A stretch of DNA of 64,000 nucleotides from positions 620,001 to 684,000 of the forward strand of contig OX485804.1 in NCBI GenBank assembly GCA_950295325.1, written 5' to 3'. The DNA is from Polytrichum commune. Lineage: Eukaryota > Streptophyta > Polytrichopsida > Polytrichales > Polytrichaceae. The position numbers and the translations under genes were made by a program. Shown here one piece after another: positions 1,856 to 38,713 of this stretch. Below the pieces are notes generated by a model that was given only the letters and a program-made list of their open reading frames with translations, made no database searches and was not told the DNA's origin. How positions within the stretch are numbered: the first letter of the stretch is position 1; each line of letters opens with the position of its first letter.

Positions 1856-2092
1856 GGGAGATACAAGTATGTGAGCGTTTCATGCGTAAAGCCACGGTTG
1901 TGCGTGCCCCTTGGCCCGCCCTGCACCAGATTAGTTGACGGCACCCAAGGGGGCTTCAGATGCAGATGCTACTTGAATCCACCCATCAACAGTGCACGAT
2001 CCGGTGTCTCCCTCACCGCTCATCAGTATGAGGTGACGATCGTTTCATATTGTGGAGATGTTATTGATGCATAGATTCATTTGATAGACCTG

Positions 2093-2420
2093 CTTGCGGC
2101 AGTAGTGTCATCCTCTCAATGTTTTCTCTCTTGCTGCCACTAGGTGAAACGTCGCGGGCAATGTTGATGACGTATTCGATACAGGTTGCATCTCGCAAGG
2201 GTTTGGAATTCTTGTCAGCTTCGCTCTATGGCCTCCTGGACAGGGCCAGGTATGTACTCTTATTTCTGCACAATAGTTGCAATCTATTTGAGTTCCGACG
2301 AGAACGTCATAGCAGATTATTAGTTTGATGAGGATACGTTATTGATATGGTGCTCCAGATGTTTCTAGAAGGTGGTCCCAGAGGATTTAAGAAGAAAGAG
2401 GCGGAACTAATGATATGCAC
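2093..2420 (+). promoter_or_regulatory. Conserved kinase-gene leader with splice donor (copy A1)
   Basis: This leader recurs upstream of the tandem-kinase gene (24320-24650) and of the single-kinase gene (55210-55545). It contains an exon-like stretch ending GGGCCAG followed by GTATGT at 2250, a good 5' splice site kept in all three copies. A 5'-UTR exon followed by an intron is the likely reading. The kinase frame it would serve here (3438-3737) is truncated. Confidence 0.45.
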
Positions 2421-3437
2421 TTCAAACTCCTTATGGTGGTCATGGTGTCACTGGATTCAATATCAAAATTTTGACAATGTATAAGTGGACCATCTAAAGA
2501 ATCCTCACTATGTTCAACCGGTAAACATGGCGCTGCTGCCTAATCAGTTTAGAACAGGTGCGGCCGACTTTGAGGGAAGGCAGTGACTCCTATCGATTCC
2601 AAGACGAACTTACCCTCCCAGATACAGCTTATAGCCATAGCCACATTTTACTTCTTGTAAAGCTCGCAGGTTGATGTTACATGAGGGTCATTGGTGAGCC
2701 TTTTGATATTTTGTCTAGATTCTGAGAATTTCATGGTGATTGTGGTTATTTGGATGCCAGAGGTGTCGGATGGGGTTGCTGAAAAGGCCTTGGAGGGATA
2801 ATCTGGACGTGCAAAAGGAATCAATTGTCTGGCTACTAGCATTCTAATTATATGTGGAAGACTGTGTGGTTGCCGAGCTGATGCTCTGAGCTATGACCCG
2901 ACTAGCAAATTCGGAAGGTATGCGCCTTAACTGTCATAGGTGTCAAAATCTCTAGCTACGAACAGAAACTTCAGATATATGAAGCTGGTTGTGCTGCTTT
3001 AACCATCCAACGGAGGCATGGCCTGTCCGTGATCCTCTCATCGTCCCAGTCTTTTCGTAGTTACTTCAAATTCACTCTTCCAAGTTCAAGAAAGTTTCAA
3101 ACGCAGTAGTGATTCTACAACACATAATTTGGTCATGACTGTCTCCTTGATCGATGGTGTTCTGTGCAGACAAGGGATCACTCCAAGAAATGATTTCCAC
3201 TTTCAATGTGTGACATGCTTCTTCACGATGTTATTACGTCCATGTGAATCCTGGTGAGTTCCTTCTGTAATTATAGTGCTGGAACAAATTGCCCGACACT
3301 CTTGAGAATTGACCCACACTCTGCAAGGTTTTGAAGGTTTGCTAGTGTAAATAACAAGCTTGACTTGGTGGTTATGTGGTGAAGATAGAAACAGGTATGC
3401 GGGAGATTGTGCATCTCCAAGGTTGTGTTGAAGGGGC

Positions 3438-3737
3438 ATGGCCATGGCTAGCGCCGTATTTGCGACAAGTGGTGTTGGTGAAACTTCCTCGCCCACAGGA
3501 ACAGATTACCTCACAACCTCGATCCAGTCATGTGTACAAGGTATCGAAGCCCAACTTGTAGGTCATAAATCCCTGCTAAACGGGAGGCAATGTCTGGATC
3601 TCTGTACAAAACTTGTCAAGACCGTCGAGAATGTTCAGAAACTAGTTTCACATTCTCAGGTAGCATCTGGAAGAAATGAAACCTTGCGACCAGCCTTGGA
3701 GAACTTGCAAAGAATCTTGGAAGGTCAAATTAGGTGA
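3438..3737 (+). pseudogene. Truncated kinase gene: N-terminal LNGRQC domain only
   Basis: The 99-codon frame is almost identical to the first 94 residues of the tandem-kinase protein at 25669, including the LNGRQC signature at residues 47-52 and the LRPALENL helix. Identity stops abruptly at about 3722, where the intact copy continues with EKARFLINGC and this copy runs into GQIR and a stop. No kinase domain follows. The break marks the end of the duplicated segment, so this is a gene cut off by the duplication or a later deletion. A short domain-only protein remains possible, because the leader and start codon are intact. Confidence 0.75.
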
Positions 3738-9628: not shown

Positions 9629-12600
9629 ATGGACGAAAACTTCATGCTACTATTGGTCCAATGCTCAACACAAATGAAGAAGTTGGTGCGAGGATCAAAT
9701 TTGTTGAATGGAAACCAATGTTTGCACATGACAAACATATCATCTCTTCTTGTGGAGGGTATCCAAAGCATGGTGAAAACTTTGCATGGAAAGGTCAACC
9801 TTGGATCAAGTATGGAGGATTTGTATCGAGTTATGAAGAGAGTTGAGGTAATAATCCAAGATTGTGGTAAGGTTGATTGGGTTCGTGCATCACTATGGCA
9901 AATGGACAATGAAGAAGAGTTTCGAGAGGTACTTGAAGAGTTGAGATGCAATTTTGACACAATGTGTGGCCAATTTCAATCAATGGGTGTAAATGTACAT
10001 GGCCTTGAAGAATCCATTAACTTTAGTCCAATCAAATTTTTGGAGGTGGAGAAAGACCGAAAGGCGTTGGAGTCCCGTTTGTTGGCACATATTCAAGCGA
10101 CAAAAGAATCTCCTGAAGAGCAAGAGATTGTGAAGCATGCCCATAAGCGGCTGATTTGTCGAATGGATGGAGAAGGCGGGGAGTTGGATGCTGCTAATTT
10201 TCCCACATATCATTGGAGTCCCAAATCGACAACTGCATTGGGCAATAATGGTGTTGGACAAGTATACATGACAAAATGTTTTGGCCTAGACGTTGCAATG
10301 AAGGTTTTTGAAAAGGTTGATGAAGAAAACATCACTATATCAAATGCAAATTTTAAGAAGGAAGTGGGTGTTTTAGCAGGGTTGAGCCATCCCAATATTA
10401 TTAAGTTTATTTGTTGTGGCGAAATCTTGGACAACCAAAAGTTTGGGATTTACATGGTGATGGAGAAAATGGACAAGAACCTCGCAGATCATTTGGACAA
10501 CAAGACTTTGAGAAAATCTTATCTTGTTACCATTGATATTATAATGCAGATTGCAAGAGGTATGTTTTACCTTCACGACATGAATGTTGCTCATCGTGAT
10601 TTGAAACCTGAAAATGTCCTTGTCAACTCTTGGGGGGACTCTAAGTTGGATGGGATGGGTTATGTGAAAGTGAAGTTGGCGGACTTCGGAATTGCAAAAA
10701 TCAAAGCCAAGGATGTGTATGAGGAGCCAACTTTGGGAAAATTAGGAACGACTGGGTATAGAGCTCCAGAGACTTTTGTCAAAGGTGGCAAGGCAAATGC
10801 TTTCAAAAGCGATGTATTTTGTTTTGCCATGTTGTGTTCATATGTTCTCACCACAACCACACCATTTCAAGGAAGGACTCCATCATCTATAAAGAAAAGT
10901 ATGGAGGATGGAGAACGACCAAAGTTGCCCCTTGATTGCCCTAAGTCCTTGGCAGCTTTGATTGAACAATGTTGGTGTCTACAACCGTCAGAAAGGCCAA
11001 CGTTTGAACATATTTGTATGAGGCTTGGCAAAGTAAAAGGGGAGCTTTTGGAGAATACTCAAAAGATCTCGAATGGTTGGATCAATCTTAACACCTTTGG
11101 GCAAAATCGGTTTCATTTGCTTCAAGCTCTTGTATCTTGTTTTTGGTTGTGGTTCCAAGTGATGGTAAGTTGGATGAGGGCATGCGTTTGGTTTATATCG
11201 GGAAAGATGAACGGTGTGGATCATGTGAACATTCCGGCTAGTACATATGCAAACAAAGGAGAATGCGATGTGTTAGTCGGATCCATACATTGCATGGAAC
11301 TCACGAGGACAAAGGCTCAACACAATGGTGCACAAGAGCTTGTTGGTATGGACAAAAGAAAGTTAAAGGTGATGACGGAATTGGTTAAGCACTCGATGGT
11401 GGTCATCATCGGGATGGGTGGAATGGGGAAAACCACTTTGGCAAAGTATATGATGGAGCATATGTGCCAAGAATTTGATGTATCGTGCTTCACGTTCATG
11501 AAAGCCCAAGGATGTGGTATTTTAGAAATATTGAAAGACATTTTGAGCAACCTAGGAGTGAATCATGAGAATGTGATTGACATTGCAGAAGGGAGAAGAT
11601 TGCTGGAGGAAAAATTCACTAAGCAAAGGACTCTCATGGTTCTAGATGACATTGGTAGTGTAGACCAAATCCATGAATTAATGGATCTTGAGATCTTCAA
11701 AGTGGCCCCTGTGAAGAACAAAATGATCATCACAACTCGTGATTGGGGCCTTGTCGAAAGCCTTGAAGGTGCTCAACGAGTGGATATGAATGAGTTGAAT
11801 TTGGATGAAGCTATGAATTTGTTTACTTTACATGTTTGTGACAATCAAAGGGTCTTTGAAATACCACCTCATGTGGAAGACATAGCGAAGAGAATTGTGG
11901 AAACTTGTAGGGGACTTCCTTTAAGCTTGAAGGTTGTGGGTTCCACATTACATGGAATTGATCGCGTGCGCATATGGATGAGGACTTTGCAAAGGCTACG
12001 AAGGGCAAGATCGTTAGGTTCAGAAAACAATATGGAACTTTGGCAGTGCTTACAAGTAAGCTTTGACGACCTCAAGAATGAAGAAGACAAGAACATATTT
12101 TTGGACATGTGTTGTTTTCTTAGCAAAGATTTGTTTGCGGAAGGTATGTTAAGAGTTGAAACTGCTTTGCAAATATGGAGCAACATCAACGAAAACCCTA
12201 CAAAATCCTTGAAACGTTTGGAAGAAAACTCTTTGGTCAAGATTGGCAAAGACGGAGGCTTGGAAATGCATGACCAATTACGAGACATGGGCCGCATGAT
12301 TGTGGAAACACAGTCCGACTATATGGGAACTCGTTTGTGGAACATACATGCTACAAAATGGAATGAGGAAATTGGAAAAGATATGAGGCACATGGAAAGT
12401 CTTTCCTACAATGAACCAACAAAGGAGGTCAGATTCATGGACATGAAGGAACCATTGCCTTCTCTTCGATTGTTCAATTATCAAGGGTGTGAGAGTCTGA
12501 TATCAATAGGACCTATTGTGAACCACTCTAAGCATCTTAGTTGTTTGTTGGTGAATTGCAAACAAAAAATCTTCATGTCTAGTGGTGAAGTAATGCAAAA

Positions 12601-14095
12601 TCCAATCTCCTTTGTGAAATGGGAAAATCTTCTGCATTTGAAGGTTTTGGTGATTACGGGTGTATCCAACTTAAAAGCACTACCTGAAAGTATTTATGGG
12701 TTGGTATCATTGAATGAAATGACAATACAAAAATGCTATAAATTTCAACACGTACCACAGAGCATAGGATCTCTACCCTCTTTGAGAGAACTAAATTTAT
12801 GTGGATGTAGAATTTTGGAGTACGTTCCTATACAAGTTGGCAACTTGACCTCCTTGACCACCTTGAATTTAAGGGGTTGTAAGGGCTTGAAGGAGATTCC
12901 GGAGGCGTTGGGTAATTTGACCTCCTTGACCACCTTGGATTTAAGGCGTTGTAAGGGCTTGAAGGAGATACCGGAGGCGTTGGGTAATTTGACCTCCTTG
13001 ACCACCTTGGATTTATGGGGTTGTACGGGCTTGAAGGAGATACCGGAGGCGTTGGGTAATTTGACCTCCTTGACCACCTTGTATTTAAACAATTGTGAGG
13101 GCTTGAAGGAGATACCGGAGGCGTTGGGTAATTTGACCTCCTTGACCACCTTGGATTTAAACAATTGTGAGGGCTTGACGGAGATACCGGAGGCGTTGGG
13201 TTATTTGACCTCCTTGACCACCTTGGATTTAAGTGGTTGTACGGGCTTGAAGGAGATACCGGAGGCGTTGGGTAATTTGACCTCCTTGACCACCTTATAT
13301 TTAATCAATTGTAAGGGCTTGGAGGAGCTACCGGAGGCGTTGGGTAATTTGACCTCCTTGACCACCTTGCATTTAAGTTGTTGTACGGGCTTGAAGGAGA
13401 TACCGGAGGCGTTGGGTAATTTGACCTCCTTGACCACCTTGGATTTATGGGGTTGTACGGGCTTGAAAGAGATACCGGAGGCGTTGGGTAATTTGACCTC
13501 CTTGACCTCCTTATATTTAATCAATTGTGAGGGCTTGAAGGAAATACCGGAGGCGTTGGGTAATTTGACCTCCTTGACCACCTTGTATTTAAGTGGTTGT
13601 ACGGGCTTGAAGGAGATACCGGATGCGTTGGGTAATTTGACCTCCTTGACCTCCTTATATTTAATCAATTGTGAGGGCTTGAAGGAGATACCGGAGGCGT
13701 TGGGTAATTTGACCTCCTTGACCACCTTGCATTTAAGTGGTTGTACGGGCTTGAAGGAGATACCGGAGGCGTTAGGTAATTTGACCTCATTGACCTCCTT
13801 GTATTTAAACAATTGTGAGGGCTTGAAGGAGATACCGGAGGCGTTGGGTAATTTGACCTCCTTGACCATCTTGAAATTATGGGGTTGTACAGGCTTGAAG
13901 GAGATACCGGAGGCGTTGGGTAATTTGACCTCCTTGACCACCTTGCATTTAAGTGGTTGTACGGGCTTGCAAGAGATACCGGAGGCGTTGGGTAATTTGA
14001 CCTCCTTGACCACCTTGAATTTATGGGGTTGTACGGGCTTGAAGGAGAAACCGGACGCATTGGGTAATTTGACCTCCTTGACCATCTTCCATTGA
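9629..14095 (+). CDS. Kinase-NB-ARC-LRR immune receptor (PNL-class NLR)
   Basis: This uninterrupted 1488-codon frame encodes a four-part protein. Residues 1-130 are a helical domain with the LNGNQC signature (26-31) shared with the other kinases of the window. Residues 195-470 are a TKL-type kinase that looks active: glycine loop GNNGVGQV, K225, E245, HRD D324, DFG D352, APE. Residues 495-524 are strongly hydrophobic. Residues 570-900 are NB-ARC, with P-loop GMGGMGKTT (595-603), Walker B LVLDD-like D673/D674, TTRD, GLPL and MHD (880-882). From about 1020 there are LRRs, of which 17 full copies are near-identical 24-residue units. This order is the PNL class described from mosses; such proteins are cytosolic, nucleotide-switched immune receptors by family. 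The start is supported because the shared helical domain begins within a few residues of M1. The frame ends inside an LRR without a C-terminal cap, and about 12 more units follow the stop, so the present protein may be shortened. Confidence 0.9.
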   Translation: MDENFMLLLVQCSTQMKKLVRGSNLLNGNQCLHMTNISSLLVEGIQSMVKTLHGKVNLGSSMEDLYRVMKRVEVIIQDCGKVDWVRASLWQMDNEEEFREVLEELRCNFDTMCGQFQSMGVNVHGLEESINFSPIKFLEVEKDRKALESRLLAHIQATKESPEEQEIVKHAHKRLICRMDGEGGELDAANFPTYHWSPKSTTALGNNGVGQVYMTKCFGLDVAMKVFEKVDEENITISNANFKKEVGVLAGLSHPNIIKFICCGEILDNQKFGIYMVMEKMDKNLADHLDNKTLRKSYLVTIDIIMQIARGMFYLHDMNVAHRDLKPENVLVNSWGDSKLDGMGYVKVKLADFGIAKIKAKDVYEEPTLGKLGTTGYRAPETFVKGGKANAFKSDVFCFAMLCSYVLTTTTPFQGRTPSSIKKSMEDGERPKLPLDCPKSLAALIEQCWCLQPSERPTFEHICMRLGKVKGELLENTQKISNGWINLNTFGQNRFHLLQALVSCFWLWFQVMVSWMRACVWFISGKMNGVDHVNIPASTYANKGECDVLVGSIHCMELTRTKAQHNGAQELVGMDKRKLKVMTELVKHSMVVIIGMGGMGKTTLAKYMMEHMCQEFDVSCFTFMKAQGCGILEILKDILSNLGVNHENVIDIAEGRRLLEEKFTKQRTLMVLDDIGSVDQIHELMDLEIFKVAPVKNKMIITTRDWGLVESLEGAQRVDMNELNLDEAMNLFTLHVCDNQRVFEIPPHVEDIAKRIVETCRGLPLSLKVVGSTLHGIDRVRIWMRTLQRLRRARSLGSENNMELWQCLQVSFDDLKNEEDKNIFLDMCCFLSKDLFAEGMLRVETALQIWSNINENPTKSLKRLEENSLVKIGKDGGLEMHDQLRDMGRMIVETQSDYMGTRLWNIHATKWNEEIGKDMRHMESLSYNEPTKEVRFMDMKEPLPSLRLFNYQGCESLISIGPIVNHSKHLSCLLVNCKQKIFMSSGEVMQNPISFVKWENLLHLKVLVITGVSNLKALPESIYGLVSLNEMTIQKCYKFQHVPQSIGSLPSLRELNLCGCRILEYVPIQVGNLTSLTTLNLRGCKGLKEIPEALGNLTSLTTLDLRRCKGLKEIPEALGNLTSLTTLDLWGCTGLKEIPEALGNLTSLTTLYLNNCEGLKEIPEALGNLTSLTTLDLNNCEGLTEIPEALGYLTSLTTLDLSGCTGLKEIPEALGNLTSLTTLYLINCKGLEELPEALGNLTSLTTLHLSCCTGLKEIPEALGNLTSLTTLDLWGCTGLKEIPEALGNLTSLTSLYLINCEGLKEIPEALGNLTSLTTLYLSGCTGLKEIPDALGNLTSLTSLYLINCEGLKEIPEALGNLTSLTTLHLSGCTGLKEIPEALGNLTSLTSLYLNNCEGLKEIPEALGNLTSLTILKLWGCTGLKEIPEALGNLTSLTTLHLSGCTGLQEIPEALGNLTSLTTLNLWGCTGLKEKPDALGNLTSLTIFH

Positions 14096-14953
14096 TGACC
14101 TTATAATGGCTTGAAGGAGATACCGGAGGCGTTGGGTAATTTGACCTCCTTGACCACCTTGGATTTAAGTGGTTGTACGGGCTTGAAGGAGATACCGGAT
14201 GCGTTGGGTAATTTGACCTCCTTGACCACCTTGGATTTAAAAAATTATGTGGGCTTGAAGGAGATACCGGAGGCGTTGGGTAATTTGACCTCCTTGACCA
14301 CCTTGAATTTAAGAAATTGTAAGGGCTTGAAGGAGATATCGGAGGCGTTGGGTAATTTGCACTCCTTCACCACCTTGGATTTAAGTTATTGTACGGGCTT
14401 CAAGGAGATATCCGAGGCGTTGGGTAATTTGCACTCCTTCACCACCTTGGATTTAAGTGGTTGTACAGGCTTGAAGGAGATACCGGAGGCGTTGGGTAAT
14501 TTAAACTCCTTGACCACCTTGAATTAAAGAAATTGTAAGGGCTTGAAGGAGATACCGGAGGCGTTGGGTAATTTGACCTCCTTGACCACCTTGGATTTAA
14601 GTATTTGTTAGGGCTTGAAGCAAATACCGGAGGCGTTGGGTAATTAGACCTCCTTGACCATCTTGAAATTATGGGGTTGTACGGGCTTAAAGGAGATACC
14701 GGACGCATTGGGTAATTTGACCTCCTAGACCATCTTCCATTGATGAGCTTATAATGGCTTGAAGGAGATACCGGAGGCGTTGGGTAATTTGACCTCCTTG
14801 ACCACCTGGAATTTAAGAAATTGTAAGGGCTTGAAGGAGATACCTGGGGCGGTGGGTAATTTGCACTCCTTGACCACCTTGGATTTAAGTGGTTGTACAG
14901 GCTTGAAGGAATTACCACAGGCGTTGGGTAATTTGACCTCCTTGACCACCTTG
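12834..14953 (+). repeat. 72-bp tandem array encoding 24-residue LRRs (about 29 units)
   Basis: Each unit encodes a repeat of the form LGNLTSLTTLxLxxCxGLKEIPEA. Seventeen full units and a partial one lie within the gene up to the stop at 14093-14095. About twelve more continue in the same frame to 14953, broken by stops near 14096, 14525, 14609 and 14645. DNA of the framework is almost invariant, while changes cluster at the codons around LxLxxCx. A distinctive mutated unit (CCATTGATGA...TTATAATGGC) occurs at about 14089 and again at about 14737, 648 bp or nine units apart, showing a block duplication within the array. The array produces long spurious frames on the opposite strand. Confidence 0.95.
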
Positions 14954-16199
14954 CGACGAGCAAGCGAAAGCTATAAGAATGCTTGGCCAATTGAAAGAGC
15001 AGAATCGAGTCAAAGATCTCGGTCTGTCTTCAACAATTTCACCCGCATCGGAGACAAATGACCTGGTTCTAGAAGATCGACATACATTGAAGGAGAGACT
15101 TCAAGACATGGCCAAAAGCAGTACCTCATCAGATAAGCATAAAGAGTACCTTGTGAGATTCATGTTGAGAAAACTAGAAGTTTGGTCTGGAGAGCAAAGT
15201 ATTGAGAATTTGGACCCATCTGATCCAATAAGTTTGGGTACCATTTCAGAAGTGCAAGATACAGAGGACAATGCATTGTCGGGTGAACAGGAACTGGCGT
15301 CTAAAGTGCAAAGAATTGAGAATGTGGGCATGTCTGATGCAATAGATTTGGGTTGAGATTCGGAATTGCAACATGGATGGGAGAATGCCAATTTAAAAAT
15401 CATTGGAAGCGGAGCACATGGAGTTGTTTTGTCCACCAAATGGCATGGCATCCCCTGCGCCAAGAAGGTATTTGATGTGAAGACCAGTCACATTTTTCAG
15501 AGGGAAGCAGCTGTGCTGAGATGCCTGAACCACCCGAACATTGCCAAGTTCTTCTTTTGTGGCACTGAAAACCAGCAATGTTTCATTGCGATGGAGCTAA
15601 TGCATATGAGTCTGCATGAATTGATCAAGGAACGTAAAGGAAGGCCATTTTCGACTAATGTAGCAATAAACATCATTTTGCAAATCGGGAATGCAATGTA
15701 CTATCTACATAAACAGGGGATTGCACATCGTGACCTCAAATCACTTAACGTGGTGATCAACAAAGTGTCAACCACTCCACACCCTGGTGACAAATTTCAG
15801 GTGAAGTTGGTTGATTTTGGGTTGTCAAAGACAAAGGTGGAAGCTTCCAAGACCAACCCAGTGTCTATAAGAAATTGTGGCACCACAACATATAGAGCAC
15901 CAGAGGTATTTTCCAATGGAGATGATCCTGAAAAGGTGGTTTGGTTCAAGGCGGATGTATATAGTTTTTCTTTGATCTGCTCAGCAATTTTGTCCTTGAA
16001 GGAGCCCTTTGAAGGTGTATATGCAAAGACCTTGATCTGCCAGTTGCGCAACGGTCTGAGGCCACGTCTCCCACAAGATTGCCCCAAAGAGTTGGCTGCA
16101 CTCGTGGAAGAATGTTGGAATGAAGAACCTAAGTTACGACCCAGTTTTCTAGCCATTCGCACAAGGCTGGAGAAACTTGTTTTCTCGAGTGAGAATTGA
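14954..16199 (+). pseudogene. 5'-truncated kinase pseudogene fused to the LRR array
   Basis: From CGACGAGCAAGC onward the sequence matches 56641-57886, the middle and end of the intact single-kinase gene, at high identity. The N-terminal domain and leader are missing, replaced by the LRR array, and the two reading frames do not match across the junction. The kinase frame carries one nonsense codon, TGA at 15354-15356, where the intact paralogue has TCA (57041-57043). Downstream, the 277-codon frame 15366-16199 retains all catalytic motifs (GSGAHGVV, CAKK, HRDLKS, DFG, APE). It is therefore young and was inactivated by the truncation plus this single change. Use of an internal start after the stop cannot be excluded but would lack a promoter of its own. 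Confidence 0.85.
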
Positions 16200-16495
16200 T
16201 CCTATGTGCAACTAGACTAATTACTCCTAACTGCAAATGCTCCAGAGAAGACAACAGTAGTCGAGGTAACCATCATTGATTAGTTTCTTTATTATGATTG
16301 TTTTCCCACTAGGTCAATTCCATGTAAAATTGGTGGGATTGGTTCAAAGTTAGATATTTATTATCAGTGATATGTTGTGCTCTGCCAAAACTTCTGTTGG
16401 TTATTGTTAACTCAATGAATGCTACCTTAATGTTTGTCGATTAATACAATATTTACATTTCACAATCGTCCAATGTAATGAGATTAAATCATTCC
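16200..16495 (+). other. 3' flank of kinase pseudogene (duplicated)
   Basis: This is the 3' untranslated and downstream sequence, matching 57887-58185 beyond the intact kinase gene almost base for base. There is no separate gene. Confidence 0.7.
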
Positions 16496-16508
16496 TTGAT
16501 TATTTACA

Positions 16509-16884: not shown

Positions 16885-16897
16885 TTGATTATTTACA

Positions 16898-18440
16898 CCT
16901 AGTACTTGGGACCACTTTACACTATGGCCAAGTGTCATGACCATGAAATTGTGAGAGACCAGGGTCCTTGAAACTCATTTGAAGGCCGTACCATGGAAAC
17001 TGAAATTGGATTTGGTGTGGTCACGGGCCTTCCAGTGTAATGTAAAGACATAGTATGCGACCGGGCTCTCCACCGAACGTCATTCCATTACCATCTTTTT
17101 CATGTAGGCCCTTCTACACAATGAGGTATAATAGATCAAGAGTTGCAAGATCTTGAATAGTCATGGTCTTCCGGTTCCGTGGTTTGAGGTAGGCTTCATG
17201 CAAAAGTGGGTAGATCATGTAAAATTATCCCGTTAATGCCATGTAGGCTTCCAATGTAGGCTTCCAATGTAGGTTCAATCATTCAAACTCCCTTGGCCCC
17301 TTAGGCCCTCGAGCTGTAGTAGTAATGTGCACAGGCTCATACTAACAGTAAAGAACTGCAGAAAATAATCTAGACTTGGATATGAGTGGGTGGCCTTTCT
17401 AAACATAAATTGCTCATACAAGGAGATGTTCACCTCTACTTGTTTGGCTCATACTTTCCCCACTATTTGTTTTAGCTAACAAAGCTTATGAGGGATATGT
17501 AGGAGATGTTTGGATGGAATTAGAATTTGGATCAGATTCTCCACGTGTAATTTTGGTCTGAAGAATTTATACTGAAACAAAACCTCCAGCCCTTGAGACA
17601 AGAAAACTTTACGAAGACTTCTCACCTGCACATTCAAAAAACATAGATGTATTAGGCCCGGCAGGTTTTTCACAATTCCGCATGTGCAACAATTTCCGAG
17701 CATCAAGGCAATCTACTCTGTAACGGTTCCCAAAGATTATCCCACAATCAGTTCAACCTGCGTTGGTGATAGATCCTTGATGATATATTCTTGCAAACCA
17801 ATTGAGCACCTTGCAGTCTTACCTGCTTATTTGTACGAAGCTTCAAAACAATGCAAGTTTGCCCAAAGTATGGCAAACTAAGCTCTAGAGAACATGAAAT
17901 TGCTTATATGTGGAAGGGTTGCGACACACAACTTGCAAGTTTGATGGCCCAAGGTAAATGAATTTGGACCCTTACATGCGCATAAAATGGTGGAGCACAG
18001 GTTCCTTCTTTTTTGGAGTGATTTGAGACCATTAAACATGAAAACTCTACAAGTATGAGTTCAAAACATGACCTTGAATACCAATCGAAACAAAAGCAAG
18101 GACCAATCTTGAGACAAAGCTCCACCACGAAAGACACATGTAAGGATGCATAATCATTTGCCTTGGCCCACCAAATTTGCAAGCTTGAGCTTGAGCTCAA
18201 AGTTTGTACATGGCAAGGGTATTAACAATTAATTGGTCAAGTACATAATTTCCACTTCACCATTTGTTGCCTTCCATCATTGACCATGCGTGTGTTGATC
18301 CAATGCGCCATGAAGACCCTCCTCTTGTTCTTTCATGCCAACATGTCCTTCAATTCCAATATGGTAGATACTTGGGAACCTACCAAAAAAACATGTTCTC
18401 AATAATGACATCTCACAACTTCTCACAGCTTGCAAATCTC
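16898..18440 (+). other. Duplicated downstream region, no gene recognised
   Basis: The stretch matches 58200-59720 closely, so the duplicated unit reaches about 2.2 kb past the kinase stop. Similarity fades near 18410-18440. Open frames in it are short and not convincingly coding. A small tandem duplication of AGGCTTCCAATGT near 17245-17275 distinguishes this copy. Confidence 0.6.
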
Positions 18441-18924
18441 ATTTTATAATTGACCTTGAAAATACATAAAGTTTTAAAAGATAATGTGGGTTGAACCTAT
18501 CATAGGATTACTAAGCGGCTAGATGATGGTCTCTTTTTAAAGAAAGAGGTTGCAATTTAAAATCTATGATAAATCTTAGCTACTTGTTGATACATAACTC
18601 TACAATACACAACATGAGTGCTCCCCATAAATGGATGAATTCCGAAATTGAAGGAGAGTTATGCTCGCTCGATGCCTGGTCCCACGGAATGCACCCAAGG
18701 AGTTGAACTTAATAAATGGCAAAATACTACTCAATATGTTTTGGTAGAACTTCCCTTGACAATGGTAAATTCAGTCAATTTTGGGAAAAGAATGAAATCG
18801 CAATTTTTTAGATATATAAGGGCCCGGGCCCGGGTACGGGTGAGGGGGGGCCCATAAGGTGTTATTATTATTATTATTATTATTTTAAATAAAATAAAAT
18901 ACAATTTTTAATAAAAATAGTTTA
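18441..18924. other. Junction region with simple repeats
   Basis: No gene is seen. A GGGCCCGGGCCCGGG palindromic stretch lies at 18821-18836 and a (TTA)n microsatellite at 18862-18884, just before the second upstream block begins. These may mark the seam between two duplicated segments. Confidence 0.5.
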
Positions 18925-19887
18925 ATGTGTGTGTGTATGTGTGTCCAAGATCCCAATCTTGAAGTTTGGGGACGAAGAAGTGATGGTCCACAAGGATGGC
19001 CAACACTAGGCTCACTTTATACAAGGCTTGGGGTTGTCCTAATTCATGTGCAATTAAGCCCTGAATTTGGTCCACCTTTATCAATTTTTGTGGGCCCAAC
19101 CTTGTCACATGTAAAGTGATGAGGCATGATTTTAGATCCAAATGTTCTTGAGGGGAAAGTGTAGTGAAGAGAATTAACTTTTAATGAACTGGCGATTAAG
19201 ATCATTATCCAACAAGTGAATCCAATCCGGTCCATGTTGACAGTTCGGGCCAAGGAAAAGCTCGTCCTGATATCTTCAACTTGACCCGCAGTCTTGGTGC
19301 CAAAATTATGCTACCTAGGACGCCACATGGGATGAGTGAGTGTTCATGCCCAACTCTAGCATAAAGCCCTTGGGCCGGATTTGATGAAATTGAGCGGTCC
19401 TATTATTGAACCAAATTTTTAGGCTTTGGGCTAGCTCTCAATCCAGCCCCAAGTGTAACTTGGCCCTAAGGGCCACTTCACACACGAGACTGAGAGCCCG
19501 TGACCAATGCACTTCATGCACTCTCATTGGTGGAAAAGGCAAAGCTGGTCCAAGTTCGCTTCATACGACGCTTGAGGGACCAACAAAGTATGTGAATCCA
19601 AGATGGTTGTAAAGTCTACATGCATTCCTACATGGTATCGAATGGATCATGTTAAAGGTCACTTGGATTATTTTCAAAACCACCTTTTGGAGGAGGCCTA
19701 ACACAAAACCGGAAGATTATGGCACTCCAAACGCTCACAACCGTTGGTTTATTTTATTTTATCACATGACCTGCATGAATAGAAATTCATTGACATGGCA
19801 CTTGGTTCAGGGCGCGGTCACATATGACTTCACACGGCACTTTAGGATCCGTTATTACACTACATGATTTTGGAGGTGTCTTGGGAC
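18925..19887. repeat. Upstream block of kinase loci, copy 2 (left part)
   Basis: It is nearly identical to 40-997. The copy is interrupted at CTTGGGAC (19880-19887) by the hAT element and resumes at 23778, matching positions 990 onward. No coding sequence is supported. Confidence 0.85.
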
Positions 19888-20306: not shown

Positions 20307-22548
20307 TTAGATATCCGTATCCTCAGAATTAGGAAACATAGTTGAACTTACTGAACAAGATGCATCACTTCCCGAAGACACATAAAGTGAAGGATTAGCA
20401 TATAAAAACCGGTATTTAGTTCCATTTTTCCACAAAGGAATTGCCTCTTCAATAATATTATCAAAGTTCTCATTGGGTCCTTCTAAAGCAATTCTAAGCA
20501 TAGCTTCCAAATTTTTATTTCCAAGTCTATTTCTCACTCGTGTTTTAATTAAATTTTGGATACTAAACGCCCTTTCACAAGTGGAGGTCGATACACATTG
20601 TACTCTAGCCAAATCAGCAAGGACAAGCAAATTAGGATATCGGGTTTGCAAAGAATGATTCCATGTGATCATGCCCCATAAATCTCTACAAGTCTTATCT
20701 CCCCATTCAGTGGTGGCTTACAATTTGAAAGCTAGAAATTCACGCTTGCAAGCCATCACATCAACGAAGGGGGGAAATTTTGAACCTTCTTGGGAGCGAT
20801 CATGCCCATAGTGTGCTAGTAATTTCTCCAATTCAACCACCCCCCAATTTTGGAGGCCTATTTGCTTTGAAGGCATATTAGTAGGATTAAAGATTTTAAA
20901 ACATGAAATAAGATCATTGTCTACAAATCTGGCATCCAAGCCTGCACAAACAGCTTCTGCAAAGGCACGTTGGAATTTAAGTGCTTTCTCAAGGTCATCT
21001 CCTAATCTAGACCGGTCCATTTCAAAACCGTGATACATTTTTCCATGAATTTCACTTGAGAGCTTTCGAAGATGACCCCCAAGAGGGTCATATTCGGAAA
21101 TAACATGATAGCCAATGTTTTCGTTAAATGTAGAAGCATTCAAATCAATTTGCTCAACAATAAACAACATTCTAATTTGTGCTATCTCGGTTCTAACAAT
21201 ACTACCAATAGTTGTGACATCCACAAATTTGTTTTGAAAAATCTTTGATAACAATGCATAAGGAATGTAAGATATCAGCTAGAAAATACAAAATATATAT
21301 GTATTTAAATTGTTTTAATTTGGCAAAAAGAACCTTCATTTGACCAAGGTCTTTTTTGTCTTTCACATCACGAAAAAAAACACAAAACAGACTCTAATGA
21401 ATCACATAAGGTAGTCACAACTTGCCACCTACTAAGCCATCGTATCTTATGATACCGTTTCATAGTTTTTTTAGCATAAAAAAATATTGTTTGCAAGGTT
21501 GTGAGTGCATGTTTACGCTTATTTGACATATTAAAGTATGAAGCAATTGTATTCAAAATATTATCAACCTCATCGGATATTACCTTGCAATCTGATGTTT
21601 TAGATGCATCAAGTGCCGCTAGATTAGTCCTATGAGCAACACAATGACAAGACAAAATGAATGGGTTTAGGTTGTTTTTCAATCTTATTGCTACTCCACC
21701 ATGAGATCCCACCATGGTGCTTGCACCATCATTGCCAAATACCACACACTTGCATAAATCAAGTTCCCAAATCTTTAAGTGATTGACTAAACATTCAAAA
21801 ATAATACTAGCATTTTTTTTTCCACCCTCAATCTCTAACAAACCTAAAAAGACAGTCAAAGGCACACCTTCCTCTATAATTGTGGCAAATACAACAAGAT
21901 GACCGGTAACACTTATGTCCGTAGTTTCATCAATCATGATACCATAGAAAGGAGAATTTCGAACCATACATATGATTTTTTTTTATGACATTAGACATAC
22001 ATGCAATTAAATCAGCACATGATTTTTCATCATGTTACAAAGATGCAATGATAGGAGCCTTTACACTAGCAAGCAGTGAACACAAAGAAGGAAATTTTGC
22101 ATAAGGGAGGGATTGCTTTCCTATAAAGTAGGCAGCACGAAACAATGATGACAATGATTCATCACATGCACGTTGCCCTTGTTTGATCGCCTTCTTCAAC
22201 ACTTTGCCACCACTTTGTAAAGCCCAACAAAGTTTTTTATGTTCACTAGAACATGCATGATCATGAAATGCACTTACCTTCAGATTTTTGAATCCCTCCT
22301 TGGCATATACCGAACGTCCACCCTTCTCCTTGCAGATTTTACAACATACTCTTCCCGAATTGGGAGAAAAATCTAGCCAATCAAATTGGCTATACCATTG
22401 GTCTTTCCATATACCTTATGCATTTGAAACTTCAAAAGATAGTAAATCATCCAATGCACATGTTTCAGATGCTAAATCATTTATATCAATATTTCGAGGA
22501 ATGGTCAAAAAATGTTCCTTTAAGGACCTTTGTCGTTTTGCCATTCCT
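20307..22548 (-). pseudogene. hAT transposase remnant (TTF zinc finger, DUF4371-like, hAT C-terminal)
   Basis: In order on the minus strand there is a zinc-finger-like region (about 22400-22270, DWLDFSPNSGRVCCKICK). It is followed by the catalytic core with IDETTDIS and GNDGASTMVG and CHCVAHRTNLAAL (21967-21368). A middle part follows (21254-20718), then the hAT dimerisation segment with STCERAFSIQNLIKTRVRNRL (20672-20307). This is the ZNF862-like hAT lineage. The frame is broken: a TAA interrupts the stretch before the core near 22040, a frame shift occurs in an A-run near 21970-21982, and the core and middle part are in different frames around 21255-21367. Some of these gaps could be introns, but the early stop is a real lesion. 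Confidence 0.85.
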
Positions 22549-22679: not shown

Positions 22680-23340
22680 GACAGACAACATTTCGATGGG
22701 TAAGCTCTGAATAAAGACAGCTGCAGACATAAGCATTTCGATGGGTAAGCTCTGAATTAAGACAACTGCAGAAATAAGCATTTCGATGGGTAAGCTTTGA
22801 TCAAGACAGTTGCAGAAATAAACATTACAGACTGCAGAAATAAGCATTTCGATGGGTAAGCTCTGAATCAAGACAAACTGCAAAAATAAGCATTACAGAC
22901 TGCAGAAATAAACATTTCGATGGGTAAGCTCTGAATCAAGACAGCCTGCAGAAATAAGCATTTCGATGGGTACCTCTGAATCAAAACAGACTGCAGAAAT
23001 AAGCATTTCGATCTACAGAAATAAGCATTTCGATGGGTACCTCTGAATCAAAACAGACTGCAGAAATAAACATTTCGATGGGTAAGGGCTGAATCAAGAC
23101 AGACTGCAGAAATAAGCATTTCGATGGGTATCTTTGAATCAAAACAGACTGCAGAAATAAGCATTTCAATGGGTACCTCTGAATAAAAACAAACTGCAAA
23201 AATAAGCATTTCGATGGGTAAGGGCTGAATCAAGACAAACTAAAGAAATAAGCATTTCGATGGGTAAGCTCTGAATCAAGACAAACTAAAGAAATAAGCA
23301 TTTCGATGGGTAAGCTCTGAATCAAGACAAAATTAAGGTC
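22680..23340. repeat. Minisatellite inside the hAT element
   Basis: About 13-14 imperfect units of roughly 45-60 bp are anchored on GCATTTCGATGGGTA, followed by CTCTGAATCAAGACA or a variant and CTGCAGAAATAA. Unit length varies because some units lack part of the sequence. It lies between the transposase 5' end and the right terminus. Confidence 0.9.
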
Positions 23341-23777: not shown

Positions 23778-24319
23778 CTTGGGACGACCAGTGGACACTT
23801 TCTTTTGGGCTCTCACAATTTCATAGTCACGGCTCTTGGCTCGTGTGTGAGGTGGCCCTAACAACAGAGGCTGCCCCAAAAGGATCCCAAAAGGAGAGTA
23901 TCGAGGGGTGATTCTCGTTCCGCAAGAGACACAGGAGACACCCATCAATGCTCATGCGTTGTTTGTCAATCCCATCAGATTCCAACTTCTCAAAGAACGC
24001 CACCACTCGAGGATCCATTAAGTACGTACTGTCATCTGCAGCACGAAATCAATTTCATTTCATGCATCCCGTGGGCAGCCAGCCAGGGGAGATACAAGTA
24101 TGTCAGCGTTTCATGCGTAAAGCCAAGGTTGTGCGTGCCCCTTGGCCCGCCCTGCACCAGATTAGTTGACGGCACCCAAGGGGGCTTCAGATGCAGATGC
24201 TACTTGAATCCACCCATCAACAGTGCACGATCCGGTGTCTCCCTCACCGCTCATTAGTTGGAGGTGACGATCGTTTCATATTGCGGAGATGTAATTGATG
24301 CATCGATTCATTTGATACA
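23778..24319. repeat. Upstream block of kinase loci, copy 2 (right part)
   Basis: Sequence resumes the match to the first copy at 990-1301 and, after skipping the 554-bp segment, 1856-2092. It leads directly into the conserved leader of the tandem-kinase gene. Confidence 0.8.
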
Positions 24320-24650
24320 CCTGCTTGCGGCGGTAGCGTTATCCTCTCAATGTTTTCTCTCTTGCTGCCACTAGGTGAAACGTCGCGGGCAATGTTGATG
24401 ACGTATTCGATACAGGTTGCAACTCGCAAGGGTTTGGAATTCTAGTCAGCTTCGTTCTATGGCCTCCTGGACAGGGCCAGGTATGTACTCTTATTTCTGC
24501 ACAATAGTTGCAATCTATTTGAGTTTCCGACGAGAACGTCATAGCAGATTATTAGTTTGATGAGGATACGTTATTGATATGGTGCTCCAGATGTTTCTAG
24601 AAGGTGGTCCCATAGGATTTAAGAAGAAAGAGGCGGAACTAATGATATGC
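24320..24650 (+). promoter_or_regulatory. Conserved kinase-gene leader with splice donor (copy A2)
   Basis: It is the same leader as at 2093 and 55210, with GGGCCAG followed by GTATGT at 24481. Further downstream an acceptor-like TTCTGTGCAG ends at 25400 and a donor-like GTGAGTTCC starts at 25484, so a second small leader exon (25401-25483) is plausible before the start codon at 25669. The transcription start is not identified. Confidence 0.45.
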
Positions 24651-25668
24651 ACTTCAAACTCCTTATGGTGGTCATGGTGTCACTGGATTCAATATCAAAA
24701 TTTTGACAATGTATAAGTGGACCATCTAAAGAATCCTCACTATGTTCAACCGGTAAACATGGCGCCGCTGCCTAATCAGTTTAGAACAGGTGCGGCCGAC
24801 TTTGAGGGAAGGCAGTGACTCCTATCGATTCCAAGACGAACTTACCCTCCCAGATACAGCTTATAGCCATAGCCACATTTTGCTTCTTGTAAAGCTCGCA
24901 GGTTGATGTTACATGAGGGTCATTGGTGAGCCTTTTGATATTTTGTCTAGATTCTGAGAATTTCATGGTGATTGTGGTTATTTGGATGCCAGAGGTGTCG
25001 GATGGGGTTGTTGAAAAGGCCTTGGAGGGATAATCTGGACGTGCAAAAGGAATCAATTGTCTGGCTACTAGGATTCTAATTATATGTGGAAGACTGTGTG
25101 GTTGCCGAGCTGATGCTCTGAGCTGTGACCCGACTAGCAAATTCGAAAGGTATGCGCCTTAACTGTCATAGGTGTCAAAATCTCTAGCTACGAACAGAAA
25201 CTTCAGATATATGAAGCTGGTTGTGCTGCTTTAACCATCCAACGGAGGCATGGCCTGTCCGTGATCCTCTCATCGTCCCAGTCTTTCGTAGTTACTTCAA
25301 ATTCACTCTTCCAAGTTCAAGAAAGTTTCAAACGCAGAAGTGATTCTACAACACATAATTTGGTCATGACTGACTCCTTGATCGATGCTGTTCTGTGCAG
25401 ACAAGGGATCACTCCAAGAAATGATTTCCACTTTCAATGTGTGACATGCTTCTTCATGATGTTATTACGTCCATGTGAATCCTGGTGAGTTCCTTCTGTA
25501 ATTATAGTGCTGGAACAAATTGCCCGACACTCTTGAGCATTGACCCACACTCTGCAAGGTTTTGAAGGTTTGCTAGTGTAAATAACAAGCTTGACTTGGT
25601 GGTTATGTGGTGAAGATAGAAACAGGTATGCGGGAGATTGTGCATCTCCAAGGTTGTGTTGAAGGGGC

Positions 25669-28600
25669 ATGGCCATGGCTAGCGCCGTATTTGCGACAAG
25701 TGGTGTTGGTGAAACCTCCTCGCCCACAGAAACAGATTACCTCACAACCTCGATCCAGTCATGTGTGCAAGGTATCGAAGCCCAACTTGTAGGTCATAAA
25801 TCTCTGCTAAACGGGAGGCAATGTCTGGATCTCTGTACAAAACTTGTCAAGACCGTCGAGAATGTTCAGAAACTAGTTTCACATTCTCAGGTAGCATCTG
25901 GAAGAAATGAAACCTTGCGACCAGCCTTGGAGAACTTGCATAGAATCTTGGAGAAGGCGAGGTTTCTTATCAACGGGTGCTCTGAAGTAGATTGTAAAGC
26001 GTTGATATTTCAGATGCAAAATGAAGAGGCCTTTCGAGAGATTTTGTATGAGGTAGGCTTGTGTTACAATGCCATCTACGAGCAAGCCAAACATATGGTA
26101 CAATCGGAAGGGAGGATTCTTGGAGTGGAAGATCTCCGTGAGTCGAGTTCTACATTTGTGCCGGCACTGGAAAGAGAGGTTCTCGAAGATCAACACACAC
26201 TGCAGACAATACTTGAGAATCTTGTCAGGAGTCCATCAAATGACACAAAGATTCAATGCCTTGCAAAGTACTTGTTGGACAATCTGAAATTCATATGCGA
26301 ATATAGCGGGGGGAACAGAGTGGCCCGCTCGATGATGTCTAATGCGGTGATGTGGGTGACCGAAACAGAAACGCAAGGTACTTGGAATACCAAAGGCTTC
26401 GTTGGAAATGGAGCAGGGGCTAAAGGTGTTTTGGACACTGAATGGCTTGGAATCCCCTGTGCCAAGAAGATTTTCAAAGCTCACAACTCAGAGTATGCCG
26501 ATTTTTTGGGACTCCAAGGGACTCTTGGCTATTTGGCAAATATCCCAAATTTGTTTGGCTTCCAATCTATAAAGAAGGAGCTTCGCAGCCAATTGGAGGA
26601 TTTTACTTTTCGGAAGGAAGTGGCACTCCTGGCACGCCTCAATCATCCGAATGTTGTCAAGTTCTTCTGTTGTGGTAGTGATTCAAAAGATGAATGTTTC
26701 ATTGGGATGGAGCTTATGGAGATGGACCTGTCTTCCTTGATTAGAAGGCGTGAAGGAAAGCTGTTTGCGATTGAAGTGGCACTGGACATCATTTTGCAAA
26801 TTGCGTGTGGGATGCTCTATCTTCATGATCGAGGGATTGCACATCGAGACCTTAAACCTTTGAACGTGGTAATCAGCAAAGTTCCTAACTCTCCACATGT
26901 TGTTGAAAATTTCTGTGTGAAGTTAATTGACTTTGGTTTGTCAAAGGCTAAGGTACAAGCCTCCATGTCCAGTACAGTATCAATCCCGAACTGTGGCACC
27001 GTAACATATAGAGCTCCAGAGGTGTTTTCCAAGGCACATGAGCACGTTCCGCGTGGAGGTGAACAGAAGGTGAATTGGTTCAAGGCGGATGTATACAGTT
27101 TTGCTTTGACATGCTCAGTGATTCTGTCCTTGAAGAAACCCTTTGAAGGGCGGTACCTTGAAGACGGGGAGGAGGATGGGCGGTACCTGGAGTTAATAAA
27201 TGGTACTCGGCCAGAGATTCCCTCAAGCTGCCCTAAAGAGTTGGATGCACTTTTGAAGGAATGTTGGGAGACAAATCCTGAAAGAAGACCCCATTTCTCA
27301 ACCATTTGCATGAGGCTTGAGAAGTACAAGCATGGTCTTTTAAGAAGCCTATCTACTTCTATGGATGAAGGTTTGGAGGAGGTGAAATATGATGCAAGAA
27401 GTGATTGCACCGCATGCATTGAGAGGCTCCTTGAGGAGCGTTCTCGACATCGGAGTTCTATTAAGGATCTTGCCACAAATTCATCTGCTGTCGAAGCTGA
27501 GGTAATCATAAAGGCAATCATGATGATACCCTACTATGTGGGTCGTGGAATCCTGTTGAATGGATGGCAATTGTCCTCAAACCTGCCAAGCTGGTTTAGA
27601 CGGTGGTACAAATCTGTTGGAGCTGCTGCTCATCGTTCTTCTCTTGAAGCAGAGTACTCAAGTCTTGAACATGATTACTTGTTACTCTCCGTGCAATGTG
27701 CGAAAGATATTGCACAGGTTCAACGTGTTGGTTACGAAACTCTGCTAAACGGAAAGCAATGTCAGCATTTATCTTCGGTGATTGTGAAATGCGTTGAGAA
27801 CATTCATAGACTAGTGTCAGATTTTGGAGCATCGAGAGCGGAATCCTTTCGACCAGGATTGTGGAACTTCTACATAATCTCGGAGAAGTTGAGAAGGCTC
27901 GTGAATCAGTGCTGTGAAGCAGATTGGTGTAGAGCAGCCGTTTTCCAGATTCGGAATGAAGTGGCCTTGCGAGAGATCTTGGTGGACATAGAATTCGGTT
28001 ACAATGCGATTTTCGACGAAGCCAAGAGTATGAGTGATCAGGAAGGGAAGACTTCTGAAGTAGAAGTGCTTCGCCGGTCTTCAACATTTTCCCTCGTATC
28101 GGAGGGTGAGATTTTTGAAGATCGTTGTAGCGTGAAGAAGAGACTCGAGAACATGGTGGAAAGTGCCGGCTCTTCAGATGAGCATAAGCAATGCCTTGCA
28201 AGATACTTGTTGGGCAGATTGGGATTCATATATGAAGAGCATCATTTAGAAATATTTGCATCTATAAAGGAACTTGAGGACTTGGTTAATAGTACCGCGT
28301 CATCAAAAAACCTGGACCAGTTGGATCTTTGTGTATCTGCATTGCCTTATTTAGAACATCGGTCAAAACTGTGGAATAAAATTTACGATTTGTCCAAAGG
28401 CATCGGCTATTTAGAAGTGGGAAAACCACACTTTGCAAGTTCCTTGTTGCAGGGATTACAAGAAGAGCTTGTCACGCATCTGAGTGAAGCAACATTTTGG
28501 GTGACTAAGAAGGAACCGCCAGGGACGTGGACACACGAAGGTAGAATTATTTCACAATCTTCTGCTGGAATTGTAATGTCTACCAAATGGCTTGGAATCC

Positions 28601-38560: not shown

Positions 38561-38713
38561 CCCCGTGCAATGTTTGCAATTGTTACCATTAGTTAATTAT
38601 CTGCTTGGGAACTGGAATTTGCAGGGTGAAGCTAATCATTTGTGAAGTAGAAAGTTGAATTGTCCAGTACTTGAATATGTAGATTGATATTCTTGGAGGC
38701 TTTTGGCACAAGT

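Follow-up and report, generated by a model that had tools for sequence, protein, structure and literature searches.

What kind of protein carries leucine-rich repeat (LRR) units that are almost the same in DNA yet differ at a few codons of one face, and what keeps the framework uniform and the face varied? A locus within a 64,000-nucleotide stretch of Polytrichum commune DNA (contig OX485804.1, positions 620,001 to 684,000; hereafter the window) raises this question through the following features, given in window coordinates.

9629..14095, + strand: kinase-NB-ARC-winged helix-LRR receptor (PNL-type NLR), predicted as a single ORF of 1488 aa (ORF list; Pfam)
10232..11026, + strand: protein kinase domain, residues 202-466 (Pfam PF07714, 1.6e-42; PF00069, 4.2e-41; coordinates converted from residues)
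11366..12067, + strand: NB-ARC domain, residues 580-813 (Pfam PF00931, 1.6e-28; coordinates converted from residues)
12701..12844, + strand: two divergent LRR units directly 5' of the homogeneous array (translated 72-bp steps; unit finder on P0121)
12845..14068, + strand: homogeneous LRR units 1-17, translated, 24 aa each
14069..14140, + strand: unit 18, holding the ORF stop, with TGA TGA at codons 9-10 (14093-14098; translation); its nearest unit is unit 27
14141..14932, + strand: units 19-29, a tail that is not translated; further stops lie in units 24-27, and indels are absent (translation; unit alignment)
14933..14953, + strand: partial unit 30, a 21-bp stub cut by the joint (TRF; translation; duplication edge)
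14952..16506, + strand: kinase-gene copy, 95.8% identical to 56639-58195, that abuts the array in a different frame and includes a kinase ORF at 15366-16199

The predicted product carries its kinase N-terminally, the NB-ARC domain in the middle and the LRRs C-terminally in one ORF, with WHD_ROQ1 at residues 815-896 and several LRR models (Pfam). By this domain order the putative receptor is of the moss PNL-type class (PK-NBS-LRR, Pkn-NLR), for which the available text of PMC3352924 and PMC11218826 gives the same succession of kinase, NB-ARC and LRR, and the array is, as read from the sequence, the LRR domain of this kinase-NB-ARC-LRR receptor. Among the best 120 of 841 matches, the named full-length relatives are kinase-NB-ARC-LRR proteins of Sphagnum, Ceratodon and Physcomitrium (28-30% identity), and the top match (P0001) and nearest fragment (P0182) are metagenome proteins, the moss kinship being one of match lists and not of a tree. 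As opposed to the PNL class, which has conserved phase-0 introns at the PK/NBS and NBS/LRR borders according to the available part of PMC3352924, the receptor requires no intron at either border because its frame is open across both in the genomic sequence (an in-frame intron is possible); near-identical LRR units are also unmentioned for the class in the portions of PMC3352924 and PMC11218826 at hand. A fold search returned SHOC2 and other LRR solenoids, which resemble the receptor LRR at the fold level only. Matches of the LRR to NCBIfam models of type III effectors (XopAE, XopAC and XopL; 351/600, 267/450 and 258/500 bits) fell far under the cut-offs, so that an effector identity was rejected and the matches are read as generic LRR similarity. 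The closest solved structures by sequence for the full ORF, LRR included, were PDB 7jlu/7jlv (ROQ1) and 7crb, which we take to be RPP1. These TNL receptors have a TIR domain where the moss receptor has a kinase, and effector binding in them involves the LRR together with a C-terminal domain next to it; to our knowledge, their LRRs are not built of near-identical units. No C-terminal jelly-roll domain was found in the moss ORF by Pfam.

The array itself is strikingly regular. TRF reported a period of 72 with 29.3 copies, 87% matches and 0% indels over 12845-14953, corresponding to 29 full units of exactly 72 bp (12845-14932), and a 33-bp framework pattern (at most 3 mismatches) matched 28 times in the window compared to 0.00 expected (100 shuffles). 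Units 1-17 have a mean pairwise DNA identity of 0.900 (0.874 when all 29 units are compared) and a mean pairwise protein identity of 0.826; each of the 29 units has a DNA sequence of its own.

Variation among units 1-17 is confined largely to the residues that the initial annotation had named, i.e. position 8 (N, D, Y, H or K), 10 (R, W, N, S or I), 11 (G, N or C, to which we add one R) and 13 (K, T or E), and its description of a near-invariant framework is borne out by a framework pN of 0.014. Mean protein identity was 0.34 at positions 6, 8, 10 and 11, whereas the remaining 20 positions averaged 0.92 (P 0.0003 by permutation of positions). As the units are not independent samples, the P values from permutation are approximate throughout. 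In an AlphaFold2 single-sequence model (mean pLDDT 84.5) a strand begins at position 6 in every unit, so that Leu 7 and Leu 9, which are buried, are interleaved with positions 6, 8 and 10; the modelled strand ends at position 10 in units 8-17, at 9 in unit 7 and at 8 in units 1-6. These positions support the earlier placement of the variation on the beta-strand face. The tally of nonsynonymous and synonymous changes that had been proposed as a check gave a pN/pS of 2.75 for core codons and 0.20 for the framework (units 1-17; codon sets 8, 10, 11, 13 or 6, 8, 10, 11, 13, 16), and equal change at the two kinds of codon, which had been named as speaking against the idea, was thus not what we found.

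For counts of alleles and events the core was defined before counting as codons 8-13 (18 bp), which cover the beta-strand face and the turn that follows. Twelve of the 15 alleles common to more than one of units 1-17 fell within it (P 1.2e-5), and the ratio of core-nonsynonymous to framework-synonymous shared alleles was 12:2 at near-equal opportunity (P 0.013), or 15:7 if singletons were counted too (P 0.14). A single site, unit site 22 in codon 8, accounted for 6 of the 39 parsimony changes (P 0.001), and codons 10-13 behaved as a linked, mutually compatible block that comes in 8 types among the 17 units. Core events (N:S 15:1) were not above expectation (P 0.22), and framework events in units 1-17 alone did not reject neutrality (P 0.15). 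Diversifying selection on the face is, on these sequence comparisons, supported but not proven, and we read the pattern as concerted evolution of the framework with retention of a few face types, rather than as hypermutation.

The same pattern could arise, with a probability that is appreciable but well short of even, from ordinary LRR constraint and recent tandem expansion, in which the framework is conserved and of recent origin, nothing constrains the exposed positions, and neither diversifying selection nor special exchange is needed. Variable exposed residues on the strand are a general trait of LRR families, the event-level tests of selection are mostly non-significant, and framework pS (0.07-0.10) is close to the pS between the two kinase-segment copies (0.083), implying that the units may be of a similar, modest age. 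Relaxation alone, however, should neither lift core-nonsynonymous above framework-synonymous alleles nor yield six changes at one nonsynonymous site, and a recent tandem expansion should leave like neighbours or identical units, neither of which was found.

A point overlooked in the initial annotation is that the ORF ends within unit 18, whose ninth codon is a TGA (14093-14095). The frame takes in units 1-17 in full and no others, and 12 of the 29 units are untranslated; five of these 12 (units 18, 24, 25, 26 and 27) contain in-frame stops, eight stop codons in total. Framework pN rises from 0.014 in units 1-17 to 0.106 in units 18-29 (0 of 5000 label permutations gave as large a difference), and framework pN/pS from 0.20 to 1.03 (label permutation of the ratio, P 0.034), while framework N:S events in the two array halves did not differ (10:7 vs 17:7, Fisher P 0.51). 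The 7-fold lower framework pN before the stop implies a constraint that ended there. The array past the stop thus appears to be free of protein-level constraint, and the gene seems to function with the 17 units that precede it. Core pN/pS is also high in the tail (2.50), presumably by inheritance. The decaying tail provides a built-in control, as the same units can be compared side by side with and without constraint on the protein.

Whether the whole locus is instead a pseudogene, its original 3' end destroyed by the unit 18 stop and the kinase-segment joint, has to be weighed, and we consider this doubtful. The array is indeed fused out of frame to the kinase-gene copy, units 18-27 hold eight in-frame stops, and the Physcomitrium PpC24 transcripts all have a stop before the LRR, according to the available text of PMC3991678. 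Yet the 1488-aa ORF is unbroken and encodes the kinase, NB-ARC and winged-helix domains, and framework constraint, to judge from pN, ended at the stop. The joint had likewise escaped earlier notice: the edge of the duplicated kinase segment cuts the array at 14952, and comparison with the copy at 56639-58195 shows this one to have a TGA in frame at 15354-15356. The array appears to have been cut when the kinase-gene copy joined it.

That the array end coincides exactly with the edge of a segmental duplication could also betray an assembly artefact, with the number or order of units wrong especially in the tail, and such repeats are unreliably recovered from short-read assemblies (PMC12222747, in the part available). 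We deem this unlikely: the 29 units include no identical pair and no indels, and misassembly would not arrange for the framework contrast to switch at the ORF stop.

The alternation of LINCEG and LSGCTG types described earlier is present in units 10-13, where INCE and SGCT strictly alternate (xN- and xG-types in units 9-15), but over units 1-17 similarity at offset 2, with 6.2 mismatches, falls short of significance (P 0.09). A duplicated 9-unit block, also described earlier, was not found when offsets 1-19 were compared: at offset 9, 18 of 20 pairs differ by 5-14 bases and only pair 18/27 stands out (2 mismatches), so that at most units 17-18 recur, as units 26-27 (pair 17/26 has 5 mismatches, with unit sites 60C and 63A found solely in these two units). 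Unit 26 bears marks of unit 15 as well as of unit 17, and unit 19 is one base apart from each of units 6 and 11. Within units 1-17 similarity did not decay with distance (Mantel r -0.007, P 0.48), and within-unit recombination was not significant (PHI-like test, P 0.07-0.17). The proposal of a modular surface reshuffled by unequal exchange thus retains its varied face, but lacks a recombination signal, distance decay and the 9-unit duplication and has to accommodate 12 untranslated units and mixed event-level tests of selection; we infer reshuffling only from the homogeneity of the array, pair 18/27 and the mosaic look of unit 26, which do not demonstrate it.

Two explanations were rejected. 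Targeted hypermutation of face codons (akin to diversity-generating retroelements or deaminases) could account for six changes at one site and for the occurrence of all four bases where codon 8 begins, but codons 8-13 hold no excess of singletons (units 1-17, 4 of 18, P 1.0; units 18-29, 10 of 27, P 0.18), none of the nine alleles of units 1-17 that are private among all 29 units lies in the core, the third positions of codons 11 and 12 are invariant in units 1-17, changes are not confined to one base, and no reverse transcriptase or deaminase was noticed when the ORFs of at least 150 aa were looked over, leaving this reading very improbable. Lamprey VLRs, to which the array had been likened, are secreted or membrane proteins that are somatically assembled from flanking cassettes and whose LRR face varies on a constant framework; the likeness holds in this last and loosest sense only, as the moss gene is of intracellular type and its kinase-NB-ARC-LRR ORF is already complete in the genomic sequence. 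For that reason the idea that single cells assemble the array somatically is the most improbable of all, even though the near-identical framework would permit exchange between units and the tail carries unit types absent from the coding part. Tomato Cf-2/Cf-5, with alternating LRRs, and PRDM9 zinc-finger arrays may be further analogues of the moss array.

We therefore favour, as the probable account, an array that forms the sensor of an immune receptor of the moss kinase-NB-ARC-LRR type, its framework homogenised by unit exchange and its face types kept apart by selection. Exchange between units (unequal crossing-over, conversion or both) would keep the framework uniform and redistribute a few face types, and selection for ligand-face diversity would keep these types apart and repeatedly alter codon 8. 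On the arched solenoid the varied residues would meet a protein that comes from a pathogen or is a modified one of the host, and its binding would then release the NB-ARC switch and the N-terminal kinase, by analogy with other plant NLRs. A more adventurous extension, which we regard as improbable, is that the tail is a living archive: face types KNYV, RNCK and SYCT, which occur in the tail and not in the coding part, would drift behind the stop and enter the receptor by exchange in the germline or in long-lived clonal tissue, giving individuals different ligand faces. The near-identity of unit 19 to units 6 and 11 and the double marks of unit 26 are compatible with such traffic.

Close parallels are the fungal NLRs with high internal conservation (HIC), comprising the WD40 proteins HET-D/HET-E and the ANK and TPR NLRs (available text of PMC1805685, PMC4986451 and PMC12222747); the HIC threshold in PMC4986451 is an identity above 85% across 100 aa or more. 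The moss array shows a best 100-aa self-identity of 0.87-0.94 at offsets of 1-8 units, its mean pairwise unit identity being lower. Akin to these proteins, as far as the available text describes them, it uses near-identical repeats as an NLR sensor with few variable positions on a presumed binding surface and with unit exchange proposed; unlike them, it consists of LRR rather than WD40, ANK or TPR units, belongs to a plant NLR and has an untranslated tail. In Podospora the arrays are shown to be polymorphic in repeat number and to evolve in concert from locus to locus, whereas the moss array is known from one sequence. Such repeats are rare in green plants (0.4%), a figure that in the available part of PMC4986451 counts ANK, TPR and WD repeats only. 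Brown-algal LRR-ROCO proteins (PMC11378527, in part) also have a 72-bp LRR unit, with positively selected sites 14, 16, 18 and 19 on the concave strand face, a spacing equal to that of moss positions 6, 8, 10 and 11; their units are separate phase-2 exons that are shuffled and alternatively spliced, whereas moss units 1-17 abut in one uninterrupted frame without intervening sequence. Among the papers listed, all from outside subscription literature, none described near-identical LRR units in a plant NLR. The moss array suggests that plant NLRs too, in mosses and with LRRs as the sensor, have evolved the repeat-homogenising receptor design of fungal NLRs, and if the units vary between individuals, mosses would be a tractable plant system in which to watch receptor faces recombine.

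Related proteins were scored for the same bias. Units were hand-picked from chains and divergent ones dropped (17 of 19 kept for the window, 11/17 for P0122, 9/11 for P0135, 5/7 for P0152, 8/9 for P0123 and 4/8 for P0001; all for P0125, P0002 and P0003), and P0004, P0006, P0007, P0138 and P0182 were chained into units but left out of the scoring. Six of the ten sets scored besides the window gave P < 0.05; P0123, P0001 and both Ceratodon sets did not, the face bias being absent from both Ceratodon unit classes and opposite in one. Physcomitrium and the two Sphagnum unit classes did show face-biased variation, on units of different sequence. The unit consensus differs among Physcomitrium, Ceratodon, Sphagnum and the window; the genes compared are distant relatives and not orthologues.

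The tandem LRR array belongs to a moss-type kinase NLR, in which it serves as a homogenised sensor with variation biased to the face of its units and a decaying tail. Judged by its relatives, the window is plant DNA of a moss-like kind. The receptor is laid out as follows.

9629-14095, + strand: receptor ORF, 1488 aa (ORF listing)
Residues 202-466 of the receptor ORF, + strand: kinase domain (Pfam)
Residues 580-813 of the receptor ORF, + strand: NB-ARC domain (Pfam)
Residues 815-896 of the receptor ORF, + strand: ROQ1-type winged helix (Pfam)
After the winged helix in the receptor ORF, + strand: LRRs (Pfam)

This architecture is that of the PNL class, as described from Physcomitrella (PMC3352924). 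Among the best 120 of 841 matches, the best for receptor residues 1-1100 was a metagenome protein (P0001; 32% identity over 98%), and full-length named relatives with kinase, NB-ARC and LRR came from Sphagnum, Ceratodon and Physcomitrium (28-30% identity). A metagenome fragment, P0182, is closer, matching 61% of a 460-aa query at 80% identity, and carries two array units with the framework of the window array and different face residues. The solved structures matching the full ORF best by sequence were 7crb and ROQ1.

The array is a real, non-chance feature. TRF reported a period of 72 with 29.3 copies and 0 indels at 12845-14953, and each of the 29 full units is 72 bp long, in a single register (consensus LTSLTTLxLxxCxGLKEIPEALGN). 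Units 1-17 average 0.900 in pairwise DNA identity, and the whole set of 29 averages 0.874. No two of the 29 are identical in DNA, and the 17 translated units encode 15 distinct proteins. When the array is compared with itself at offsets of 1-8 units, identity within 100-aa stretches rises to 0.87-0.94, above the 85% over 100 aa by which fungal NLRs of high internal conservation are recognised (PMC4986451).

The initial annotation had described a near-fixed framework with variable face codons, and codon comparison in units 1-17 bears this out: pN/pS was 2.75 at codons 8, 10, 11 and 13 vs 0.20 in the framework (codons 6, 8, 10, 11, 13 and 16 left out). A single-sequence AlphaFold2 model (mean pLDDT 84.5) forms an LRR solenoid, and a fold search returned LRR solenoids such as SHOC2 as the closest solved folds. 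In the model each unit's strand opens at position 6 and, for units 8-17, closes at position 10. Positions 8 and 10, both varied, are therefore predicted to point outward, alternating with the buried leucines 7 and 9; the varied positions 11 and 13 come next, in the modelled turn after the strand.

The face types appear to be old and the framework changes young. In units 1-17, 12 of the 15 alleles common to at least two units fall in codons 8-13 (P 1.2e-5). A mutation hotspot at this core is unlikely, as it would place singletons there: the core holds only 4 of 18 singletons (P 1.0) and 0 of the 9 alleles that stay private when all 29 units are considered. The corresponding core counts for units 18-29 are 12 of 19 shared alleles (P 0.0005), 10 of 27 singletons (P 0.18) and 4 of 18 private alleles. 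With shared synonymous framework alleles as neutral yardstick, shared core nonsynonymous alleles outnumber them 12:2 at near-equal opportunity (P 0.013); the ratio is 15:7 (P 0.14) with singletons included and 3:5 for singletons alone. Codons 10-13 act as linked types (8 types in 17 units), mutually compatible at every informative site. Unit site 22 (codon 8, first base) conflicts with 8 of the other 10 informative sites, and 6 parsimony changes out of 39 fall on it (P 0.001), all nonsynonymous alternatives. We read this as exchange homogenising the framework while a few face types persist and codon 8 changes repeatedly. Exchange is only inferred, as a test for within-unit recombination did not detect it (P 0.07-0.17) and neighbouring units are no more alike than distant ones. 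Germline exchange with diversifying selection is the best explanation, though a provisional one; a somatic reading akin to lamprey VLRs finds no support here.

The receptor frame stops at 14093-14095, inside unit 18, so only 17 units are translated, and 8 in-frame stops are spread over units 18, 24, 25, 26 and 27. Framework pN and pS are 0.014 and 0.069 before the stop (units 1-17) vs 0.106 and 0.104 after it (units 18-29): protein-level constraint on the framework is lost. Permuting unit labels, with slightly different averaging (framework pN 0.013 and 0.098), gave so large a pN difference in 0 of 5000 runs (ratio P 0.034). Distinct framework events do not differ (N:S 10:7 before vs 17:7 after; Fisher P 0.51), and neutrality is not rejected in units 1-17 (P 0.15) or in units 18-29 (P 0.64) taken separately, so the contrast depends on frequency-weighted differences. 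All these P values are approximate because the units are related. LRR sequence behind a stop has a precedent in Physcomitrella PpC24, all of whose transcripts are described as stopping before the LRR (PMC3991678).

The 9-unit block duplication proposed from first inspection is absent: at offset 9 only pair 18/27 stands out (2 mismatches). Units 17 and 26 share two marks that no other unit carries, and unit 26 looks pieced together from units 15 and 17, with 5 mismatches to each and different marks in common. Alternation of INCE and SGCT units, also proposed, is strict in units 10-13 but not significant across units 1-17 (P 0.09). Units 18 (14069-14140) and 27 (14717-14788) share heavily altered codons 7-13 (TTC CAT TGA TGA ... 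TAT AAT) with hardly any framework change elsewhere; protein selection cannot explain this, which may have arisen in one complex event or been brought in from another repeat.

Homogeneous LRR units of other sequence recur among moss relatives, as three proteins illustrate. Physcomitrium P0125, an NB-ARC-LRR protein, has the consensus LTSLTTLxxxxCSSLTSLPNELGN with three recurring face types and unit identity of 0.48 at positions 6, 8, 10 and 11 vs 0.87 elsewhere (P 0.008). The 28 units of Sphagnum P0002 alternate between two classes (0.58 vs 0.93, P 0.0008; 0.33 vs 0.88, P 0.0001). In Ceratodon P0003 the units form two classes, both homogeneous and neither with the face bias (0.94 vs 0.78, the opposite direction, P 0.93; 0.67 vs 0.84, P 0.10). 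With units hand-picked from unit chains, P was below 0.05 in 6 of the 10 sets scored besides the window; from these sequences, face bias appears common, not universal, in moss relatives. P0003 (KC19_6G093000) also matches DUF676, a putative serine esterase, at residues 592-694 between kinase and NB-ARC (22.3 bits, cut-off 20.3), possibly making it a kinase-hydrolase-NB-ARC-LRR protein that unites traits of the PNL class of mosses with those of the liverwort HNL class. By eye, P0002 (Sphagnum troendelagicum) has a second NB-ARC-like stretch after its array, either a fused gene model or a genuine double receptor.

Podospora NWD genes are described as combining high repeat identity, concerted evolution and positive selection at a few codons, the combination proposed for this array, and as polymorphic in repeat number (PMC1805685). 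Brown algae are reported to have 72-bp LRR exons with positively selected sites 14, 16, 18 and 19, spaced identically to unit positions 6, 8, 10 and 11 (PMC11378527). One account names ankyrin, TPR and HEAT repeats and one sea-urchin LRR case (PMC12222747). Among the matches listed in a search confined to non-subscription papers, there was no plant NLR with near-identical LRR units.

The array ends where a duplicated segment begins (14952-16506 vs 56639-58195, 95.8% identical), followed by a second (16886-18421 vs 58186-59714, 94.6%). The joint, with 1-3 bases of overlap by eye, lies inside a kinase gene, out of frame with the array. Between the two kinase copies pS is 0.083 and pN is 0.035, so framework divergence between units is of similar size. 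The copy joined to the array has an in-frame TGA (15354-15356) where the other (ORF 56105-57886) is open. Further duplications show that the window is a cluster that has undergone repeated duplication:

1855-3721 / 24086-25952: segmental duplication, 98.2% identity
30765-33370 / 37345-39951: segmental duplication, 95.6% identity
12-997 / 18903-19887: segmental duplication, 91.8% identity

An ORF of 1228 aa at 25669-29355 carries two protein kinase domains (a tandem kinase) and is related at the DNA level to the 15-kb and 57-kb kinase genes. A 613-aa ORF at 48308-50149 with a DDE_1 endonuclease domain (Pfam) is likely a transposase, two adjoining ORFs at 20718-21967 (- strand) resemble hAT-type transposase pieces by eye, with no Pfam match at E 0.001, and 22689-23331 is a minisatellite of mixed periods (45-136 bp).
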